Shown here one piece after another: positions 2,663-12,922 of a DNA stretch of 64,000 nt (its first letter is position 1; every line of letters begins with the position of its first letter). A model generated the notes under the pieces. That model ran no database searches and was not told the DNA's origin. It saw nothing but the letters and a program-made list of their open reading frames with translations. The DNA is from Desulfoglaeba alkanexedens ALDC. Its GTDB lineage: Bacteria; Desulfobacterota; Syntrophobacteria; Syntrophobacterales; DSM-9756. The DNA lies in assembly GCF_005377625.1 (NCBI RefSeq), contig NZ_CP040098.1:2225501-2289500 (forward strand), read 5' to 3'. Position numbers and translations under genes: made by a program.

Positions 2663-4750
2663 CTAAGCGGGGCGAACGGTGACAAAGGTGTGGTCCAGCG
2701 CGGGGCTCCCACCCACGGGGTCCGAAATGTTTTCCACAAGCACGGTGTCGCTGGCACCCTTGCCGCAGGCCCGCGTCTGGGCGGGCACGGTTTTTCCGAA
2801 GCCGTGCAGCATGAAAACCGCCTCGGGGTGGATCGCGTCGGTCACCTTGGCTTTGAGGGTCGATGCAGCCACGGGGGACCGGACTTCCACCTTCTGCCCG
2901 TCTTTCACGCCCAGCTTCGCCGCCGCGGCGGAGTGAATCCACAGTTCGTTTTCGGGCACCAGCTCGTTGAGGTAGAGGTTGTTCTGGGTGGACACATGGG
3001 TGTGGGCCGCACAGCGCCCCACCATCAGTCGAAACGTTCCTTCGGCCGGCCGCTCCACCGGCTGGTAAGGTTCGAAGGAAGGAAACCCGGCCTTTTCCAT
3101 GAGCGAACTCACCAGTTCGATCTTTCCGGAAGGCGTCTTGAACTTGATCCCGTCTTTGCGGTCCCAGAAGATCTGGGAATCGGTGAGCGCCACGAAGCCC
3201 TTCTTGGCGAAATCCTCGAGAGTCACTCCCATGTCTTTGAGCTGAAAGTTCCAGATGTCCTCGATGGTTTCGTAAGGAAAGTACCGGCCGACTCCCAGTC
3301 GGCCGGCCAGCTCTTTGAGGATCATCCAGGCCGGCTTCGTGTCGTAACGAGGGGAAACCGCCTGGCAACGGATGAAAAGTTGCGGCTTCAGCCCGGAGGC
3401 CATCTGGATGGAATCGGCCCGTTCTAGGTAGATGGATTCGGGAAGGATCACGTCAGAATACCAGGCGATTTCGCTGAAATTGACCTCGATGGTCACAATG
3501 AGGTCCAGCTTGTCCAGGGCCTTTCGAACGGTGTTGGCGTCCGGAAGGGACTGAAGCGGTTCGAAACGGTTGACGATGAGCGCCTTGATGGGATAGGGAT
3601 CTTCGTTCAAAATGGCGTGGGCGAGCGTTTGCGGGTTCCCGTGATTGCTGTCGGCAATGGGGAACTTGTCGCCGCCTGAACCGTCGAAGCGTGGAGCCGA
3701 CGGCTTGGGAAGTCCTTCCTGCTGATTGTATTTTCCGAGGTCGCCGCGTCCCGCGGCCTTGGCGCCTTTCTTAAAAAAGAGGCCGCCTTTGGCTTCGATG
3801 CTTCCCATCAATGCGTTCAGGATCACGATGGAACGTCTCAGGTGGATTTCGTTGGGGTGATGCGCGCCCCGGTAGCCGTAGTGGAAGACGACGGCTGGTT
3901 TGACTTCGGAGGCTTCCCGAGCCAGCGTCACGATTTCCGAAGCGGGGATGCCCGTCTCTTTTTCGGCCCATTCCGGCGTGTATGGTTCGACGAACGCCTG
4001 CAGTTCATTCAGCCCCGTGACCCAACGGCGGACGTAGTCCGTGTCGAAGAGCCGTTCCTTCAAAATGGTATGGATGAGGGCGTAATTGAGAGCGAGGTCG
4101 GTGCCCGGGCGGATCATCCAGTAACGATCCGCCTTGGTGGCTGTGATGCTCACCCGGGGATCGATGTAGGTCATTTTGGCGCCCTTTTCCATGGCGCTGA
4201 GCAGCATGTTGATGGACTTGATTTCGAGCGATTCGAAAATGTTCCGGCCGTAGAGAACAATGTAGCGGGTGTTGCCGTAGTCGATCCCCACCTCGGTGTC
4301 CGTATAGCCGGTGAGGCTCCGAAACGCCGTGTTCACCGAACCCTTGCAGAGTGCGTCGTGGGTGAAATGGTTGGGCGACCCGATGGCCCGCGTGAAGGTC
4401 TTGCTGATGTGGGTGTTGAGATTGGTCCGTTCGCCGAAGACCACGCTCTGGCCGCCGTACTGTTTGAGGATGGCCTGAAGCTTTTCGGCAACGTAATCCA
4501 GGGCTTCGTCCCAGGTAGCGCGGCGCCACTGGCCGGAACCTCGAGGGCCCGTCCGGATCATGGGGTACTGCGGGCGCTCGTGGTCGTTCAGCAGCGCCAC
4601 CCCGGCGGAACCCTTCGCGCACAGCGCGCCCTCAATGCCCGGAACGTGTGGATTGCCTTCGATCCAGGTCACGTCGTCGTTTTCCACCTGGACCCGGATG
4701 GGGCAGCGAACCGTGCACATGAAGCAAATACTGTAAACGTCCTTACTCAT
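2663..4750 (-). CDS. Molybdopterin oxidoreductase, PhsA/PsrA-like catalytic subunit (soluble)
   Basis: A 695-residue member of the DMSO-reductase superfamily binding a bis-pyranopterin Mo or W cofactor. An N-terminal [4Fe-4S] site is formed by Cys9, Cys12, Cys16 and Cys44, followed by the usual Lys46. Cys135 in HDALCKGS sits where the metal-ligand cysteine of thiosulfate/polysulfide reductases lies. The C-terminal molybdopterin-binding domain is present (from about residue 575). No Tat signal occurs, unlike periplasmic PhsA/PsrA, and no PsrC/PhsC membrane anchor is nearby, so the enzyme should be cytoplasmic and coupled to the flavoprotein. The cysteine spacing also matches acetylene hydratase, but Thr13 replaces that enzyme's essential Asp13, so it is unlikely to be one. 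Substrate is unknown; sulfur oxyanions or polysulfide are reasonable guesses. AAGGA precedes the ATG. Confidence 0.88.
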   Translation of the reverse strand: MSKDVYSICFMCTVRCPIRVQVENDDVTWIEGNPHVPGIEGALCAKGSAGVALLNDHERPQYPMIRTGPRGSGQWRRATWDEALDYVAEKLQAILKQYGGQSVVFGERTNLNTHISKTFTRAIGSPNHFTHDALCKGSVNTAFRSLTGYTDTEVGIDYGNTRYIVLYGRNIFESLEIKSINMLLSAMEKGAKMTYIDPRVSITATKADRYWMIRPGTDLALNYALIHTILKERLFDTDYVRRWVTGLNELQAFVEPYTPEWAEKETGIPASEIVTLAREASEVKPAVVFHYGYRGAHHPNEIHLRRSIVILNALMGSIEAKGGLFFKKGAKAAGRGDLGKYNQQEGLPKPSAPRFDGSGGDKFPIADSNHGNPQTLAHAILNEDPYPIKALIVNRFEPLQSLPDANTVRKALDKLDLIVTIEVNFSEIAWYSDVILPESIYLERADSIQMASGLKPQLFIRCQAVSPRYDTKPAWMILKELAGRLGVGRYFPYETIEDIWNFQLKDMGVTLEDFAKKGFVALTDSQIFWDRKDGIKFKTPSGKIELVSSLMEKAGFPSFEPYQPVERPAEGTFRLMVGRCAAHTHVSTQNNLYLNELVPENELWIHSAAAAKLGVKDGQKVEVRSPVAASTLKAKVTDAIHPEAVFMLHGFGKTVPAQTRACGKGASDTVLVENISDPVGGSPALDHTFVTVRPA

Positions 4751-4835: not shown

Positions 4836-5201
4836 CTAAAGGATGAGCCCCAAAGCCTTGCTCACCCGCTCTTCGAGTTCATGAATCTCGATGGGCTTGA
4901 CCAGATAGTCTTCGATGCCCAGGTCCAAGGCCTTTTTCACGGTGTCCACCGAGGGATACCCCGTGATCATGATCACCTTGATATCCGGTTGCCGCTTCCG
5001 GATCATTTCCAAAACACTGATGCCGTCCACGTGCTGAAGCTTGATGTCCAAGAGTACCAGGTCCACCGGGTTCCCTTCCAGCCACTTCAGGGCCGGATCA
5101 TGATCCGTAAAGACATGGGTTTCGTGGCCCAGGGCGGTGAGGACCCGCCGAATAAGTGTGCAGACGTCCCGTTCGTCGTCGATTACGAGGATGGTGGCCA
5201 T
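4836..5201 (-). CDS. Stand-alone response-regulator receiver domain (CheY-like)
   Basis: A 121-residue single receiver domain with no output domain. Asp8/Asp9 form the acidic pocket, Asp52 (LVLLDIKL) is the phosphorylation site, Thr80 (MITGYP) and Lys102 (LVKPIE) complete the active site. The start is placed at ATG 5199-5201, where the fold begins (MATILVIDDE); the frame stays open upstream to 5339 but that extension lacks receiver features. It heads the molybdoenzyme operon with an 85-base gap and has a sigma-54 type element 65 bases upstream. It is closely similar to the receiver at 8866-9246, with identical positions for every active-site residue. No histidine kinase is encoded nearby. Confidence 0.9.
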   Translation of the reverse strand: MATILVIDDERDVCTLIRRVLTALGHETHVFTDHDPALKWLEGNPVDLVLLDIKLQHVDGISVLEMIRKRQPDIKVIMITGYPSVDTVKKALDLGIEDYLVKPIEIHELEERVSKALGLIL

Positions 5202-5265
5202 TTCGAGTCCCCAATCCGTCTGGCAAGAGTTCGATACTTTTCGGAAATCAACCAGGGGAGCGATA

Positions 5266-5281
5266 AGCAAATTCCATACCA
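5266..5281 (-). promoter_or_regulatory. Candidate sigma-54 (-24/-12) promoter for the receiver-molybdoenzyme operon
   Basis: The minus strand reads TGGTATGGAATTTGCT. GG and GC are spaced exactly as in the consensus TGGCAYRNNNNTTGCW, with one deviation (T for C at position 4). It lies 65 bases upstream of the receiver start at 5201. No activator-binding site was identified. Confidence 0.6.
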
Positions 5282-5763
5282 TCCAACGCGAACGCGCTGC
5301 GCATGCCGTGCGGCGGTATAGTTTCCTAGAATCATGCACGCACTTCGGCCGTCAGCAGGCGCATTTGTTTCCACCGAACCTCGGCCGCCTGCCGTTTCAG
5401 ACGGGGTTCCTGCCGATTTCCCGGCAAAATCCGGCCGGAACCCGCCTCGTTGTCCGCCGTCGGTCCTATGCAGCGACAACATCCCCCGGAGCTTCCGTCG
5501 AGAGGTGTCTTCGGGTGCCATAGAGAACTTGCACTTCTGTCGACGGAAAGGGATTTCAGTGGCCCCCGAGACGTGCCGAATGGAAGCGCGGCCGAACAGA
5601 TGATCCAACTAAGGCCGGAGGTAGTGACGCCGGGACGGGGCGATCCAAAAGCGATCGGCGCGAGGGGGAGCGGTGGCCTTCGCCCGGATGCAGTAAACAA
5701 ATGGCGGTGCCAACATATTGTGGCAGTTCGGGAGGCGACGGAGGCGTCGTGGCCATGGGGGAA

Positions 5764-5910: not shown

Positions 5911-6115
<205 letters not shown>

Positions 6116-6197: not shown

Positions 6198-6425
6198 CAC
6201 GCTTGCGGTTGCTTTAAAGGGTTGCTTTAAGGGTTGCTTTTGTTCCATCCTTTCGTGCAGCTGCCTTCCTGCCGACGGGGTCGGCGGGCGGGATGGTTAT
6301 CGATGGAAGGAGAGGGGGTGAGCAGGGAGAGCGCAACAGGTTGGAGCTGTTTCATCCGCATTATTCCATTCACTGGGAGGGCCCGGATTTTCGGGTCCGG
6401 AAACCATCCATTTCGGGAGGAGTTC

Positions 6426-7895
6426 ATGAAATCAAAGGCGAAATGCTTGTCATGGGTGATGTTGTCGATCTTCCTGGGTTTCGCGCTGACGTCGGTTACC
6501 ACGGGCTGGGCCCAGAGCCAGTCGGAGACTACAGAAATGGCTCCTACTGAAGCGGCACCTACGGAAGCGGCACCTACGGAAGCGGTTCCTGCGGAAGCGG
6601 TTCCTACGGAAGCGGCACCTACGGAAGCGGTTCCTGCGGAAGCAGCTTCTACGGAAGCGGCACCTACTGAAGCGGCACCTACGGAAGCGGCACCTACGGA
6701 AGCGGCACCTACGGAAGCGGCACCTACGGAAGCGGTTCCTACGGAAGCGGCACCTACGGAAGCGGTTCCTGCGGAAGAGGCTTCTACGGAAGCGGCTCCT
6801 GCGCCGGCGCCGGCGGCTCCCAAGGCGGTTCCCAAGTCCCTGAGCGAAGCCATCGACCAGGGGCTTGAAGAGGGTTTTCTAAAGGCTGAGGATCCCAAGG
6901 GTTACTTGGGGATTCCCGGAGCGCCGTCTCCAAGCTGGATCCTGGCGTTCCTGTGGGCGGTCTGGGTAGGCTGGATTTTTTCCACCGTGGGGGCCTTCGG
7001 CGGCATCATGGCCGGTGTGGGCCACCTGACCGTTTTCGGCCTCGGCGACTACGCCAGGAGTTTCAAGGACACCTCTCCTTTCTTGAACAAGCTGATTACG
7101 GACAGCATCCGGGTATCCAACCAGTTCCTGGTTGGACTGAGCGCGGTGCTTTCGACCTTCAATTATTGGAAGATGGGTCGGATTGTGCTGCCTCTCGGCA
7201 TCGCCCTGGGATTGGGGGCGATCGTGGGCGCCACAGTCATTCCGTGGCTCACCGCCGGTAAGATCAAGCTCAGCCAGTACCAGGGCTACTTCGGGATCGT
7301 CGTTTTCATTATAGGCGGCTTCCTGATCTACGAAATGACCCCACGGGGTCAGGCGGGCAAGAAGGCGGCCAGGGAGGCGGCCCAGGCCTTCGAAAAGAGT
7401 ATCAAAGAAAAGAAAAGCGATGCAGAGCTGGCGGCCAGCGGCGTGCGACTCGTCAAATTCAGCGCGACCCGGATCATCTTCACGTTCTTCGGCACCGAAT
7501 TCTCTTTCAACCCGTGGCTTGCCATCGCCGGCGGCCTCATTATTTCGGCCATCGCGTCGTTTATCGGTGTCGGCGGCGGCTTCCTCTACGTGCCGTACCT
7601 GACCAGCGTCGTCGGTCTTCCCATGTACATCGTGGCCGGGACGTCCGCCCTTGCCACTCTGCTTTCGATGATCACCAGCATCATCAACTACCTTTTCGCG
7701 GGTGCCCTGGTGAGCTGGGGGTTGGTGGGAACGGAACTGGTGGGCATCGTTGTGGGGTCCATGATCGGTCCGCGGACGTCCAAGTACATCCCGGAGAAGG
7801 GTCTGAAATGGCTCTTCATTATTCTCGCCTTTTACGTTGGCCTGCGCTACTTCTCGAAGGGCTTCTTCGGGACGAGCTGGGTGCCGCCGTACTAG
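6426..7895 (+). CDS. TSUP (TauE/SafE) family anion transporter with Ala-Pro-Thr-Glu repeat linker
   Basis: A 489-residue membrane protein. Residues 1-29 look like a cleavable signal peptide (ending GWAQ). Residues 39-123 are seventeen pentapeptides of the form [AV][PS][TA]E[AE], a low-complexity, probably periplasmic linker. From about residue 170 hydrophobic segments carry TauE/SafE features, including two internally related halves with glycine-rich turns (TVGAFGGIMAGVGH and FIGVGGGFLYVPYL). The family exports or imports sulfite, sulfoacetate or other organic anions; the substrate here cannot be read. GGGAGGAG precedes the ATG at 6426; longer upstream frames lack such a site. It is followed after 321 bases by a tightly packed four-gene set. 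The export signal plus repeat linker ahead of a TSUP domain is unusual. Confidence 0.88.
   Translation: MKSKAKCLSWVMLSIFLGFALTSVTTGWAQSQSETTEMAPTEAAPTEAAPTEAVPAEAVPTEAAPTEAVPAEAASTEAAPTEAAPTEAAPTEAAPTEAAPTEAVPTEAAPTEAVPAEEASTEAAPAPAPAAPKAVPKSLSEAIDQGLEEGFLKAEDPKGYLGIPGAPSPSWILAFLWAVWVGWIFSTVGAFGGIMAGVGHLTVFGLGDYARSFKDTSPFLNKLITDSIRVSNQFLVGLSAVLSTFNYWKMGRIVLPLGIALGLGAIVGATVIPWLTAGKIKLSQYQGYFGIVVFIIGGFLIYEMTPRGQAGKKAAREAAQAFEKSIKEKKSDAELAASGVRLVKFSATRIIFTFFGTEFSFNPWLAIAGGLIISAIASFIGVGGGFLYVPYLTSVVGLPMYIVAGTSALATLLSMITSIINYLFAGALVSWGLVGTELVGIVVGSMIGPRTSKYIPEKGLKWLFIILAFYVGLRYFSKGFFGTSWVPPY
6540..6794 (+). repeat. 15-base coding minisatellite (17 units)
   Basis: Tandem units of about GCACCTACGGAAGCG encode the pentapeptide linker of the transporter. 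Units differ mainly at GCA/GTT and ACG/GCG positions, so the array is imperfect and partly higher-order. In-frame length change is possible without breaking the gene. Confidence 0.95.
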
Positions 7896-8216: not shown

Positions 8217-8837
8217 ATGTCCCTTTACCAGCAATTGGATCCTGTGCTCATCGCGTTCTACCGCATGACGGGAATCCCCATCGTGGACTACCTGCTCGGG
8301 ACGTTTCTGCTCGCCCTGGCCACGGTGGTGCTGGGAGAATTCACGCTGTCCTGGGTGCTACGGCTGAACCGGCCGCACCTGGAAAAGCTTGAAGGCGAAA
8401 TCTCCCGAAATCACGACCTTTCCATCCAGGCGCTCAGAGAAAAGGACAAGACTGGTTTCAGACTAATGAACCGAGAGGCCAACGACGCCTTCGGCCGGTA
8501 TTTCTTCACTATGGTCGCCTATTCGGCGGGCGTGCTCTGGCCGGCCCCTTTCGCCCTGGCCTGGATGCAGATCCGCTTCACAGGTGTGGCGTTCGAATTC
8601 GTCCACCCGCTTTCCCGGGTTCTGCCGCCCGCGAACTACGTGACCACGTTCATTCTCGTCTACATCCTCGCTCGGATTCTGTTCAAGAACCTCCGTCGTC
8701 ATCTGCCGTATTTTAGGGGCGTTCAAAAGATGCTGGACGAGCAGGCGGCCGCCGCATCGAGGAGCCGTTCCCGATCGGCGGGAGCGCCCGCCGAAGCCGA
8801 AGATGGGTTTTGCGTGAACTCTTTCCAGAAGCCTTGA
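8217..8837 (+). CDS. Small integral membrane protein, perhaps EMC3/DUF106-like
   Basis: A 206-residue protein with about three hydrophobic segments (roughly residues 22-45, 98-120 and 138-155) and a polar helical stretch between the first two containing NREANDAFGRYFF. That layout, a TM helix, charged hairpin, then paired TM helices, recalls the DUF106/EMC3 branch of the YidC-Oxa1 superfamily, but similarity is weak by eye and I do not claim the function. The C-terminus is Arg/Ser/Ala-rich and probably disordered. AAGGGG precedes the ATG. It is separated by only 28 bases from the downstream receiver gene, and the next two junctions are stop-start overlaps, so the set is an operon. Confidence 0.7.
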   Translation: MSLYQQLDPVLIAFYRMTGIPIVDYLLGTFLLALATVVLGEFTLSWVLRLNRPHLEKLEGEISRNHDLSIQALREKDKTGFRLMNREANDAFGRYFFTMVAYSAGVLWPAPFALAWMQIRFTGVAFEFVHPLSRVLPPANYVTTFILVYILARILFKNLRRHLPYFRGVQKMLDEQAAAASRSRSRSAGAPAEAEDGFCVNSFQKP

Positions 8838-8865: not shown

Positions 8866-9246
8866 ATGGCGCACGTGCTCGTACTGGACGATATGCCCGA
8901 CGCGGTGGAACTCGTCGCCAAGGTGCTTCGAAAAATGGGCCACGAAGTCTCTGGGTTCACACGGGAACAGGAGGCCATCGATCATGCCCGGTCGCAGCCG
9001 GTGGACCTGGCCATTCTGGACATAAAGTTGAAGGTGATGAGCGGGATCGAGGTGCTGCGGGAGATCAAGAAGATTCGACCCGAAACCCAGGTCATGATGC
9101 TGACGGGGTATCCCACCTTGGAATCCGCCCGCGAGGCGGTTGAGCTGGGAGCCGCGGACTTCAGTGTGAAGCCCATCGAGATCGACGAGTTGGAAAAGAA
9201 GGTATCCACTATCCTGAACCGGCCGGCTCCGCGGGACGATTCATGA
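8866..9246 (+). CDS. Stand-alone response-regulator receiver domain (CheY-like)
   Basis: A 126-residue receiver domain without output domain. Asp8/Asp9, phospho-acceptor Asp52 (LAILDIKL), Thr80 (MLTGYP) and Lys102 (SVKPIE) are all in place. It shares the TGYP and VKPIEI...ELE segments with the receiver at 4836-5201, so the two are paralogues. Its stop overlaps the next start (ATGA at 9243-9246), implying translational coupling to the PEP-synthase-like gene. No kinase gene is adjacent; the phosphate donor is unknown and might be the phosphohistidine protein next to it or a distant kinase. Confidence 0.92.
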   Translation: MAHVLVLDDMPDAVELVAKVLRKMGHEVSGFTREQEAIDHARSQPVDLAILDIKLKVMSGIEVLREIKKIRPETQVMMLTGYPTLESAREAVELGAADFSVKPIEIDELEKKVSTILNRPAPRDDS

Positions 9247-11801
9247 AGTGGTGGGCCCGAATCAAGGATGCCGCCCTCAAGGTCTTCATTCCGGACCGCC
9301 TCATCCGAACCAAGTACGAAGCGTTCAAATCCCTCTTGGAACACGATTACCTCTGCCACGAACTGCTGGCTCAACTGGAAACCTGGTACCATGAACGGCG
9401 CCTGATAGATGTGCAGGGGGTACTGAGCCGTTACCGGGTGCTTCATGGCGCCTTGGCGGCCATGATCGGCCGCCTCCAGGATATGGCGCCCGGCCGCTAC
9501 GGTCCGCTCACCGAGAGGCTCCGGGAAATCGACGAGAGGCTCCGCCCGCATCGGGTGGTTCCGCGTGTGGCGGATCCTTCCGCCCCGTTCTGCCTGCCGC
9601 TCCAAGACATCCCGGCAGAGAACCTCTTGCGTTGGGCGGGTGGAAAGGCGGCGCATCTTGCCCGGGCGCGCCGGGAACTCGGCTTGCCCGTTCCCTCGGG
9701 GTTTGTGGCCACGACGCGCGCTTTCGATGCCTTTCTCGCGGTCAGCGGTCTCCGGCGGACCATCGATGAACGGCTGGCGGAACTGGATATAGAAGACTCA
9801 AGGGCCGTGCGGGAAACCGCCGGATTTCTGGTATCGCAGGTGGCCGCGGCACCACTGCCTGCCGAAATGGAACGCGCTCTGGACGCCTGCTTCCGCAAGG
9901 TCTTTGGCGGGCGATCCGATGTGCCGGTTTTCTGCCGGAGCAGCGCCGTGGGCGAAGACGAGGCCCTTTCCTTTGCCGGCCAGTACGAATCCGTACCTCA
10001 AGTGAGTCGAGACCGGCTGCCCGCGGCCGTCCGACGGGTCTATGCCAGCAAATACGCGGAAAAGGCTCTGGTCTACCGCGTGACGAACGGGCTGGCGGAC
10101 GCGGAAACCCCCATGGCCGTTCTGGTCCAGGAAATGATCGATGCCCGGGCCGGCGGAGTGGCCTATTCACGGAACCCGCTACAGCCGGATGTCGAAGAGA
10201 TCGCCGTTTACGCGGTCTGGGGCCAGGGAGACATCCTGGTGAGCGGGGCTGTGGTACCTCACGTGTTTACCGTGTCCAGGGAAAAGTCCCAGGTCGTTCG
10301 GCTAAAATCCGGGCGCCAGGCTTCAAAGCACGTCGTCTCTGCGGAAGGAGGCCTTCGCGAGGAGCCTCTCACGGCCGAAGAAGCCGGTCTGCCGCCCATC
10401 GGGGAAAAACATGCCCTGACGCTTGCCCGCTGGCTGCTCCAGTTGGAAGAGCTCTTCGAGCACCCCCAGGATATTGAATGGTGCCTGGACGGTGAAGGGA
10501 ACCTTCGGCTGCTCCAAAGTCGGCCGCTTCAGCTGCGCGCCTGGCGCCCGCCCGCCTGTAATCCGGAGGTCCTGGAGGAAGCTGTCGAGACGGTTCTTTC
10601 GGGAGGGGAAACGGCGGCGTCCGGGGTGGGCTCCGGTCCGGTGGCCCTGATCCGGTCTCCCGAGGAAGTGTCCGAAGTTCCGGAAGGAGCCGTTCTGGTC
10701 ACGCCCGCCCTCCATTCCCGGCTGGCAGCCATTGCGGGAAGGCTCCACGGCGTCGTCGCCGAAACGGGTTCGGTGGCCGGCCATTTCGCCTCGGTGGCCA
10801 GGGAATGGCGAATCCCGGTCCTGGTTGATGTCTCCGGTGCGATGAAATCCCTCGCGCCCGGTACCGTGGTGACCGTAGACGCCTATCGCCGGAAGGTCTA
10901 TCGGGGACGGGTGGATGCCCTGCTGGACTGCGAGTGCCATCCGCGCCATCGGTTGGATGACATGCCTTTCTGGAAAAGGTTCCGGGGCCTCTTGGACGGG
11001 ATTTCACCGCTCAATCTGGTGGATCCCGGGGCTGCCGACTTTTCTATCCAGGGCTGCCGGACCTTTCACGATCTCATGCGGTTTGTGCACGAAAAGGCAC
11101 TCCAAGAGATGTTTGAGTTGGGCGGGGCACGATGGGGTCGTTTTCGCGGGGCCCGGAAACTCGCCGCATCCATTCCCCTGGTCGTGTGGGTGCTCGATCT
11201 CGACGGAGGGCTGGAGGACGAAACCAGGGCTTCCCAAGTCATTGAACCCGGACGCGTGAAGAATCCCGCCTTCCGGGCTCTGTGGAAGGGCCTGTCCGAC
11301 CCCGTCGTGGTCTGGCCGGAAGGTCTGCGGCCGCTGGACTGGAACGCTCTCGACCGAGTGAGCGGAGGGATCGTCGACTTCGAATCGCAGACCCTCAACA
11401 GCTTCGTTGCGGTCTCGTCGGACTACCTCAACCTGAACTTCCGATTCGGTTACCATTTCGTCGTGCTTGACGTTCTCTGCGGCGAAACGGCCGAAAGGAA
11501 TTACGCGGCCTTGAGTTTCCAAGGAGGTGGTGCCGGCTACCGGGGGCGGCGTTTTCGGGTTCTCTTCGTCCGAGGCGTTCTTTCTAGGTACGGGTTTGAG
11601 GCGACCGTCCAGGGCGACAATCTCCGAGCCCGTTTGCAGCAGGTTTCCCGCCCGCAGCTGCTGGAGGTCCTCGAAACCGTCGGGCGCTTGCTCGGGGTCA
11701 CCCGCCTGCTGGACATGGAAATGGAAACGGAAGGGGCCGTCGAAGCTCACGTCGCCGCCTTTCTCGAAAGAGAAGCCGCCAAGGCCGGGAAGAGGCCATG
11801 A
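9243..11801 (+). CDS. PEP-synthase-like ATP-grasp and phosphohistidine protein with novel C-terminal domain
   Basis: An 852-residue protein. After a ~120-residue helical N-terminus it carries the PPDK/PpsA ATP-grasp domain: GGKAAHLARAR, CRSSAVGEDEALSFAGQ, VQEMIDARAGGVAYSRNP and PQDIEWCLDGEGNLRLLQSRP. The swivelling phosphohistidine domain follows, with GSVAGHFASVAREW placing His514 at the catalytic position. PEP synthase and PPDK end in a PEP/pyruvate TIM barrel; here that barrel is absent and replaced by about 270 residues I do not recognise. The protein should still charge His514 from ATP, but the acceptor is unlikely to be pyruvate. Rifampin phosphotransferase is a precedent for reuse of these two domains, in another order. 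It is coupled by ATGA overlaps to both neighbours. Confidence 0.85.
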   Translation: MKWWARIKDAALKVFIPDRLIRTKYEAFKSLLEHDYLCHELLAQLETWYHERRLIDVQGVLSRYRVLHGALAAMIGRLQDMAPGRYGPLTERLREIDERLRPHRVVPRVADPSAPFCLPLQDIPAENLLRWAGGKAAHLARARRELGLPVPSGFVATTRAFDAFLAVSGLRRTIDERLAELDIEDSRAVRETAGFLVSQVAAAPLPAEMERALDACFRKVFGGRSDVPVFCRSSAVGEDEALSFAGQYESVPQVSRDRLPAAVRRVYASKYAEKALVYRVTNGLADAETPMAVLVQEMIDARAGGVAYSRNPLQPDVEEIAVYAVWGQGDILVSGAVVPHVFTVSREKSQVVRLKSGRQASKHVVSAEGGLREEPLTAEEAGLPPIGEKHALTLARWLLQLEELFEHPQDIEWCLDGEGNLRLLQSRPLQLRAWRPPACNPEVLEEAVETVLSGGETAASGVGSGPVALIRSPEEVSEVPEGAVLVTPALHSRLAAIAGRLHGVVAETGSVAGHFASVAREWRIPVLVDVSGAMKSLAPGTVVTVDAYRRKVYRGRVDALLDCECHPRHRLDDMPFWKRFRGLLDGISPLNLVDPGAADFSIQGCRTFHDLMRFVHEKALQEMFELGGARWGRFRGARKLAASIPLVVWVLDLDGGLEDETRASQVIEPGRVKNPAFRALWKGLSDPVVVWPEGLRPLDWNALDRVSGGIVDFESQTLNSFVAVSSDYLNLNFRFGYHFVVLDVLCGETAERNYAALSFQGGGAGYRGRRFRVLFVRGVLSRYGFEATVQGDNLRARLQQVSRPQLLEVLETVGRLLGVTRLLDMEMETEGAVEAHVAAFLEREAAKAGKRP

Positions 11802-12922
11802 TCGCTTACCATCTCAATTGGATCACCGATCAGCTTGCCGTGGGGCATGCTCCCATGTCCTACGCGGAGTTGGATTCTCTGCGGGAGCAGGGCATCGACG
11901 CCCTCGTGAACCTTTGCGGCGAGTACTGTGACCTCCATGAAATCGAAAAGCGCGCGGGTTTCGACGTCTACTACCTCCCCGTGACCGACAATGAAGCGCC
12001 CCGCCTGGAAGAGCTCGAAAAGGCCCTCGACTGGCTGGACGAAGCCATTTACCTGGGGAAGAAGGTCCTGATTCACTGCCGTTTCGGTGTCGGCAGGACG
12101 GGAACCTTCGTAACCGCCTATCTGCTGAGGCGCGGGTTCGGCCTCAAGCTGGCCAAGCAGACGCTCAAGAACCTTCGTTCGGCGCCGGCGAGCTTCAACC
12201 AGTGGTGGCTGCTGAGGAAGTACGGCCGAAAAGAAGGGACGCTGACCCTGCGCGAACCCACCCTGGAAATGAGTCACTTGGTGGACCTTTCCACGTTCTT
12301 TTCCGAGTATGAAGAGATCCTGTACGAGGCGGACCGGTCCTTCCTGGACTGGTCCGCGGAAGTCCCCCGGCTGGAAAGCTGCGGGCTCGGAACCGATGCC
12401 TGCTGCGGGCGGTTTCTACAGCTCCAGTTTATCGAAACGGTCTACCTCAACCACCAACTGAACCGCCGGCTCACCAGCGAAGAACGGCGGGAGACGATCC
12501 GCCGTGGGGTGGAAGCCGGTCAACGGTATAGGGGTTCCCGGATGCCGGACGGCGATCCGGGCGGTGCGGATGAGCGCTACCGCTGCCCGTTGAGCGTGGA
12601 CCGGCTCTGCATCCTCTACGAGTACCGGCCGCTGGTCTGCCGGATTTACGGCATCCCGGTGGTCTACCAAGGCCGCATCTGCTGGTGGGCGATCGAGCCG
12701 GAAAAGGCGTCCGAAGAGCTGCGGCCGTTCGATCTGGACCTGGCATCGCGGAAGCTCAACGCCCTTTCCCGCCGGCTGTTCCACGCCTTGACCGCCCTGC
12801 CGCTCGAAGACCGCAGCCTGATCTTTCCCGTCACCCACGTGGTGTCCGGAAAGTTCGTGGAAGACTACTTCGAGTTCCTCCTCCATACAGGCGCGAAAAG
12901 GAGTTCGTCCGGCCGCGCCTAG
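11798..12922 (+). CDS. Dual-specificity phosphatase fused to a YkgJ-like cysteine-cluster domain
   Basis: A 374-residue two-domain protein. The N-terminal half is a cysteine-based protein phosphatase: P-loop HCRFGVGRTG with nucleophile Cys94 and Arg100, and a candidate general acid Asp64 in PVTDNEAP. The C-terminal half has the cysteine pattern of YkgJ/UPF0153 proteins, which bind Fe or Zn: CGLGTDACCGRF, then CPLSVDRLCILYEYRPLVCRIYG. The fusion suggests a phosphatase responsive to metal or redox state, but that is inference. The start overlaps the stop of the PEP-synthase-like gene, so kinase-like and phosphatase functions are translated together. It is the last gene of the cluster; a repeat follows directly. 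Confidence 0.88.
   Translation: MIAYHLNWITDQLAVGHAPMSYAELDSLREQGIDALVNLCGEYCDLHEIEKRAGFDVYYLPVTDNEAPRLEELEKALDWLDEAIYLGKKVLIHCRFGVGRTGTFVTAYLLRRGFGLKLAKQTLKNLRSAPASFNQWWLLRKYGRKEGTLTLREPTLEMSHLVDLSTFFSEYEEILYEADRSFLDWSAEVPRLESCGLGTDACCGRFLQLQFIETVYLNHQLNRRLTSEERRETIRRGVEAGQRYRGSRMPDGDPGGADERYRCPLSVDRLCILYEYRPLVCRIYGIPVVYQGRICWWAIEPEKASEELRPFDLDLASRKLNALSRRLFHALTALPLEDRSLIFPVTHVVSGKFVEDYFEFLLHTGAKRSSSGRA

Follow-up and report, generated by a model that had tools for sequence, protein, structure and literature searches.

In the window, that is the whole stretch of 64,000 nucleotides of Desulfoglaeba alkanexedens ALDC DNA that was analysed, a dikinase-like protein carries an ATP-grasp domain and a phosphohistidine swivel domain in the middle of a composite domain predicted not to be a TIM barrel, and its gene overlaps that of a single-domain response regulator on one side and that of a phosphatase on the other. 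We read this arrangement as a receiver-controlled dikinase: phosphate would go from ATP to His514 and from there to an acceptor that the composite domain holds, and the phosphatase would oppose the reaction. We give this reading roughly even chances. The coordinates are collected in Table 1.

Table 1. Features of the dikinase locus (positions in the window)
Feature	Position	Strand	Basis and remarks
PhsA-like molybdopterin oxidoreductase	2663..4750	-	recurs near group-A dikinases
TauE/SafE-family exporter	6234..7895	+	Pfam, related loci
Membrane-like protein, family without name	8217..8837	+	recurs beside TauE in related loci
Single-domain response regulator	8866..9246	+	D8, D9, D52, T80 and K102 intact; stop overlaps dikinase start by 4 nt
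Dikinase-like protein, whole gene	9243..11801	+	852 aa, ATG start; ORF call and Pfam/NCBIfam
N-terminal (NT) piece, residues 1-112	9243..9578	+	predicted helical; would join the CT piece in the composite domain; aligned across relatives, AF2 of a natural NT+CT protein, no Pfam
ATP-grasp domain PF01326, residues 132-431	9636..10535	+	Pfam; K135, R232, E412, Q425 and R427 invariant
Phosphohistidine swivel domain PF00391, residues 480-549	10680..10889	+	Pfam
His514 codon, predicted phospho-carrier	10782..10784	+	72/72 conserved
C-terminal (CT) piece, residues 563-852, predicted non-TIM-barrel	10929..11798	+	relatives' alignment, AF2, Pfam, structure searches
Helix motif D610-x2-R613-x2-H616-E617	11070..11093	+	strictly invariant, 74/74
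His738 codon (GYHF motif), invariant	11454..11456	+	alignment; G761, G762, R772, G814 and D824 likewise invariant
DSP-type phosphatase (H93-C94-x5-R100) with cysteine-cluster (CxxCxxCC-like) domain	11798..12922	+	start overlaps dikinase stop by 4 nt

Domain layout of the dikinase-like protein

The ORF of the dikinase-like protein is intact, with exact boundaries and 852 codons. In the Pfam search the protein matches PPDK_N at residues 132-431 (E 4.3e-71) and PEP-utilizers at residues 480-549 (E 6.5e-16) and no further family, PEP-utilizers_C (PF02896) not being found at E<=1. The best NCBIfam profile is that of PEP synthase (PRK06464), which is aligned only over profile positions 11-467 of 798; since the match stops there, it is precisely the barrel part that is missing. 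A truncated or frameshifted gene was ruled out, as relatives across the phylum share the architecture.

PEP synthase (pyruvate, water dikinase; PRK06464, TIGR01418) thus resembles the window protein in having an ATP-grasp domain followed by a phosphohistidine domain, but the window protein is without the PEP/pyruvate barrel and has an extra N-terminal piece and a different C-terminal domain. The NCBIfam equivalog cut-offs are not reached, with 260.5 bits against 598 for PRK06464 and 244.7 against 739.75 for TIGR01418.

In an alignment of relatives, K135, R232, E412, Q425, R427 and H514 are kept in 72 of the 72 proteins having the ATP-grasp and swivel cassette, and this conservation argues for a cassette that would remain functional wherever it is present. 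From these residues and from homology with PEP synthase and rifampin phosphotransferase (PMC4844700, PMC12167813), phosphorylation of His514 from ATP is strongly expected. Outside that alignment, the paralogue at L085 456-2756 has, by eye, a seemingly degenerate ATP-grasp motif and an unrecognisable swivel His next to a C-terminal domain that is still recognisable; it may be a pseudo-enzyme.

The preliminary description of this DNA had held that the ATP-grasp and phosphohistidine motifs are intact (His514), that the PEP-binding TIM barrel is missing and that the C-terminal part fits no family, and all three points are borne out, the last for residues from about 563 to 852, which have no Pfam, NCBIfam or PDB family match. 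It had also described the barrel as replaced by a new domain. Indeed the barrel is gone and a new domain is present, but the exchange is not a one-for-one swap, as residues 1-112 and 563-852 surround the cassette; moreover, the unmatched C-terminal region begins at about residue 563 rather than about 575 as first placed, and residues 1-112 are without a match as well.

Fold of the composite domain

Fold prediction had been proposed as the check for a diverged but complete PEP-utilising barrel, and the AlphaFold2 model of the CT piece (mean pLDDT 85.6, pTM 0.77), for which 88 relatives of this piece were aligned, is not a barrel. The model has long helices at 26-38, 59-76, 217-233, 254-271 and 281-298 (model numbering) and strands at E171-176, E179-186, E189-196, E205-211, E237-241 and E244-250. 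These strands come in consecutive runs, as is typical of an antiparallel sheet, and lack the regular strand-helix alternation of eight beta-alpha units. It predicts a helical plus antiparallel alpha/beta fold and not a TIM barrel. When the 88 members were compared with Pfam, none matched PEP-utilizers_C and no family was common to them, the stray matches being weak and confined to single members.

Searches for a known fold gave only weak leads. With Foldseek against PDB and viral models no match was obtained for the CT piece at E < 1e-3; the top match, 2plg_A, has an E of 5.9e-3 and a probability of 0.95, and the other weak leads are 4h5b, 3kxy and 1xkp as well as ferredoxin-like pieces. We take 2plg, 4h5b, 3kxy and 1xkp to be a YbjN/T3SS-chaperone-like group. 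VIA-align of the CT piece gave Z values up to 7.5 across some 64 residues, a level that common arrangements also reach, and the best E of the CT profile against PDB sequences was 0.11.

The N-terminal 110 residues align throughout the relatives, and no Pfam match was found for residues 1-112. Two natural proteins, those of L040 (394-aa ORF) and L091 (409-aa ORF), have the NT piece running directly into the CT piece, with neither ATP-grasp nor His domain, and retain all the strictly invariant residues (D610, R613, H616, E617, P645, G683, H738, F759, G761, G762, R772, G814 and D824). AlphaFold2 of the L040 protein, with full-length relatives as the alignment, gave a model (pLDDT 87.1, pTM 0.78) in which, by structural comparison, the NT helices share a single helical bundle with the first CT helices, and the alpha/beta part comes after it; the matches of this NT+CT model to FAT-like helical bundles (Z about 12) are generic. 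From this model, residues 1-112 and 563-852 appear to make up one body around the kinase cassette. The L040 and L091 proteins form a pair with 99% support nested within the window's subfamily in a tree without an inferred root, and this position suggests that the cassette was lost once. That every invariant residue is retained in the absence of the cassette makes an independent function of the composite domain probable.

Receiver, phosphatase and distribution of the family

The genes for the TauE exporter, the membrane-like protein, the receiver, the dikinase and the phosphatase are all oriented in one direction. The coupling of the receiver to the dikinase, already noted in the preliminary description, is confirmed by the overlapping ORFs and by intact receivers close by in many loci: the acid pair, phospho-acceptor Asp, Thr/Ser and Lys (D8, D9, D52, T80 and K102) are intact in 42 of 42 receivers, and a response regulator lies within four genes of 37 of 65 dikinase genes, being the immediate neighbour in 22 of the 65. 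A second receiver-only protein, for which an upstream extension is possible, is encoded at 4836-5339 on the minus strand, just upstream of the PhsA-like gene.

While the receiver linkage is real, a stronger partner, the phosphatase, had been overlooked. Its Pfam matches PF22785 and PF00782 are above cut-off, and H93, C94 and R100 of the HCx5R motif together with D64, the putative general acid, are invariant in 36 of 36 sequences. When the phosphatase was counted across 395 genomes at E<=1e-25, it was present in 42, and the CT domain was present in all 42 of these (hypergeometric P 1.3e-20, a value that ignores relatedness). It follows immediately downstream, at most 300 bp away and on the same strand, in 36 of the 42, and lies within 5 kb in 41; in L055 (1254 aa) and L060 (1272 aa) phosphatase and dikinase form a single fused protein. 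The single phosphatase copy of the window's genome is the one adjoining the dikinase, and the phosphatase also adjoins the cassette-less proteins of L040 and L091. On the tree, the pairing tracks a single clade, with 5 changes against 20.4 in shuffles, a count in which three 'no' labels (L074, L075 and L077) are wrong, the phosphatase being present there. Many group B paralogues are without a phosphatase neighbour; hence it is not needed by the whole family.

In a sample of 395 genomes from across the window's phylum, 147 have the CT domain, frequently as several copies per genome, and the full-length query was matched in 21 of 21 genomes of the near-relative set. The matches that bear names come from Desulfobacteraceae and further Desulfo-type bacteria, three copies are present in the window's genome, no match was obtained in the plasmids searched for the CT domain, and literature searches did not find a description of the family. 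A transcriptome study lists Ddes_1644 as pyruvate phosphate dikinase, next to a gene for a sigma-54 regulator (Ddes_1643-1644), with no comment on architecture (PMC5701242); Ddes_1644 is a candidate member of the family.

A second group of paralogues shows the gene order TauE, Alph_Pro_TM protein, dikinase, receiver and often a second dikinase. These paralogues are often paired within about 16 kb (in L084, in L085 and, as L069 and L070, in the window's own genome), and in L084 and L085 the paired genes directly flank a single receiver gene. The clade of L038, L046, L049 and L051 has an extra C-terminal domain of about 210 residues, weakly similar to a 3-keto-disaccharide hydrolase- or lectin-like jelly roll (PF06439 in L038, E 2.7e-4, below cut-off). 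At about 1339-1342 kb of C1 in the window's genome (L005, L119), PPDK-type N-terminal and PEP-utilizers_C matches fall in two distinct but adjoining ORFs of 493 and 459 aa, which may be the parts of a split or frameshifted PPDK.

Signalling genes (for histidine kinases, single receivers and NtrC-type regulators) and the phosphatase gene are conserved neighbours over 57 loci, together with genes for PhnD-type binding proteins, TauE and a molybdopterin oxidoreductase. In the window's subfamily, receiver, dikinase and phosphatase make up an operon, with PhnD-type sensors, histidine kinases, TauE exporters and PhsA-like reductases in the vicinity. The order PhnD, histidine kinase, response regulator, dikinase was seen in several loci, with PF12974 matches among the neighbours, and one PhnD-type neighbour shows weak similarity to the TtrS sensor. 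The window's oxidoreductase scores 619 bits against the PhsA profile (cut-off 694). TtrS and ThsS sense tetrathionate and thiosulfate through a PhnD-type domain (PMC5408782). The recurrence of PhnD/TtrS-like sensors, TauE exporters and PhsA-like reductases close to the window's subfamily makes a sulfur oxyanion its probable input. TtrSR and ThsSR are alike in having a PF12974 (PhnD-like) sensor, a histidine kinase and a response regulator near a PhsA-type reductase; however, their regulator binds DNA, whereas the window has a stand-alone receiver coupled to a dikinase. PADLOC gave no defence link. Two oddities of the sequence lie at the TauE-family gene: an uninterrupted run of 50 T at 6048-6097, about 140 bases upstream, which is odd in GC-rich sequence and possibly an assembly artefact, and a 15-base tandem repeat of 17.5 copies at 6539-6800, within the gene, which gives a TEAAP-type low-complexity segment near the N-terminus.

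Proposed mechanism and comparison with known systems

In the receiver-controlled reading, a two-component system would have the dikinase-type phosphotransferase as its output. A nearby histidine kinase would phosphorylate the upstream receiver, which would then turn the dikinase on or off, as the operon structure suggests, with a sulfur oxyanion as the presumed signal in the window's subfamily. ATP bound by the ATP-grasp domain would phosphorylate His514 on the swivel domain, to judge from the conserved catalytic residues and homology, and the swivel domain would then hand the phosphate to an acceptor on the NT+CT body, which would stand in for the pyruvate barrel; the domain order and the invariant D610, R613, H616, E617, H738, R772 and D824 point to this step. 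The downstream cysteine-dependent phosphatase may strip the phosphate or reset the acceptor, in line with its exclusive co-occurrence, adjacency and fusion. The ATP/His chemistry and the gene linkage are well supported; the acceptor and the direction of control we infer, gene neighbourhood being association and not direction of control. As the preliminary description had it, the acceptor may be either a small molecule or a protein such as the receiver. What counts against the mechanism is that the L040 and L091 proteins lost the cassette and kept NT+CT and the phosphatase; the CT piece therefore has a role for which no kinase in cis is needed. The group B paralogues that have no phosphatase neighbour count against it as well. 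The main rivals are a metabolic small-molecule kinase and a relay from His514 through His616 to the receiver.

On the first of these readings, the enzyme would be a common metabolic dikinase that phosphorylates a small molecule of sulfur or carbon metabolism, in the manner of rifampin phosphotransferase or phenylphosphate synthase, and the two-component genes would regulate transcription only. The domain logic agrees with it, such enzymes forming a large unexplored group (PMC4844700) and a widespread family (PMC12167813), and NtrC-type regulators, TauE exporters and PhsA-like reductases recur close by. However, the overlapping neighbour is a stand-alone receiver with no DNA-binding domain, a protein-tyrosine-type phosphatase is an odd partner for a catabolic kinase, and the relatives without the cassette retain the composite domain, so that we hold a purely metabolic enzyme to be unlikely.

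A phosphorelay from ATP to His514, then to His616 in an HPt-like four-helix part of the composite domain and finally to Asp52 of the receiver, appears more doubtful still. Indeed, the predicted helical bundle of the NT and first CT helices bears the strictly invariant H616, and the translationally coupled neighbour is a receiver with its acceptor Asp intact. On the other hand, a Pfam search of the NT piece, the CT piece and the NT+CT relatives gave no HPt match, in a search whose HMMER filters drop weak matches and for a part predicted to be a helical bundle; the bundle similarity is generic, the many further invariant residues in the alpha/beta part would be superfluous for an HPt domain, and phospho-Asp is not the usual target of cysteine phosphatases.

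The cassette could instead be an ATP or energy sensor that moves NT+CT, the real output, and passes no phosphate to an acceptor. That L040 and L091 retain NT+CT and every invariant residue after losing the cassette, and that the L085 paralogue has apparently degenerate cassette motifs, would fit such a sensor, but the strict retention of H514 and the ATP-grasp residues argues for retained catalysis, and we regard it as improbable. Lastly, a diverged but complete PEP-utilising barrel, which the PEP synthase domain order would favour, was rejected and keeps practically no likelihood, with no PF02896 match at the dikinase locus, two such matches elsewhere in the window's own genome and a predicted structure that is no TIM barrel.

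The chemistry of the receiver-controlled dikinase is of a known kind, that of the dikinase superfamily, and several systems share parts of its design. Rifampin phosphotransferase (RPH) is alike in joining ATP-grasp and swivel His domains to a non-barrel acceptor-binding domain, which the swivel His serves (PMC4844700); however, its His domain is C-terminal, after the rifampin-binding domain, whereas in the window protein it lies mid-protein (480-549 of 852) with the acceptor domain split around the cassette, and the RPH profile gives 192 bits against a cut-off of 999, the best stretch being the ATP-grasp part only. Phenylphosphate synthase PpsAB and the two-component dikinases HpeHI/CreHI also combine dikinase chemistry with a swapped acceptor domain, but they are split into two proteins, act on phenols and have a different domain layout. 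Plant glucan, water dikinase with the SEX4-type glucan phosphatase may offer a parallel for a dikinase paired with an opposing dual-specificity-type phosphatase, by analogy only, as the window protein has no shown glucan-binding module or glucan substrate. Neither the libraries nor the literature searched yielded a counterpart of the acceptor domain, of its division around the cassette or of the operon with receiver and phosphatase.

Such proteins are annotated by their ATP-grasp/dikinase part only, which suggests pyruvate metabolism. If the receiver-controlled reading is true, a regulated phosphotransfer system would be present in more than a third of the sampled genomes of the phylum, often in multiple copies. 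A wider and more tentative possibility is an undescribed signalling module in which receivers control phosphohistidine dikinases that would phosphorylate a protein, or the receiver itself, via the composite domain, and a dedicated cysteine phosphatase would undo the phosphorylation; if true, it would bridge bacterial two-component signalling and PEP-synthase-type chemistry. The operon offers a direct handle, with receiver, kinase and opposing phosphatase as three adjacent, overlapping genes, and the position of the dikinase between a receiver and a tyrosine-type phosphatase suggests an undescribed reversible phosphorylation in sulfate-reducing-type bacteria.
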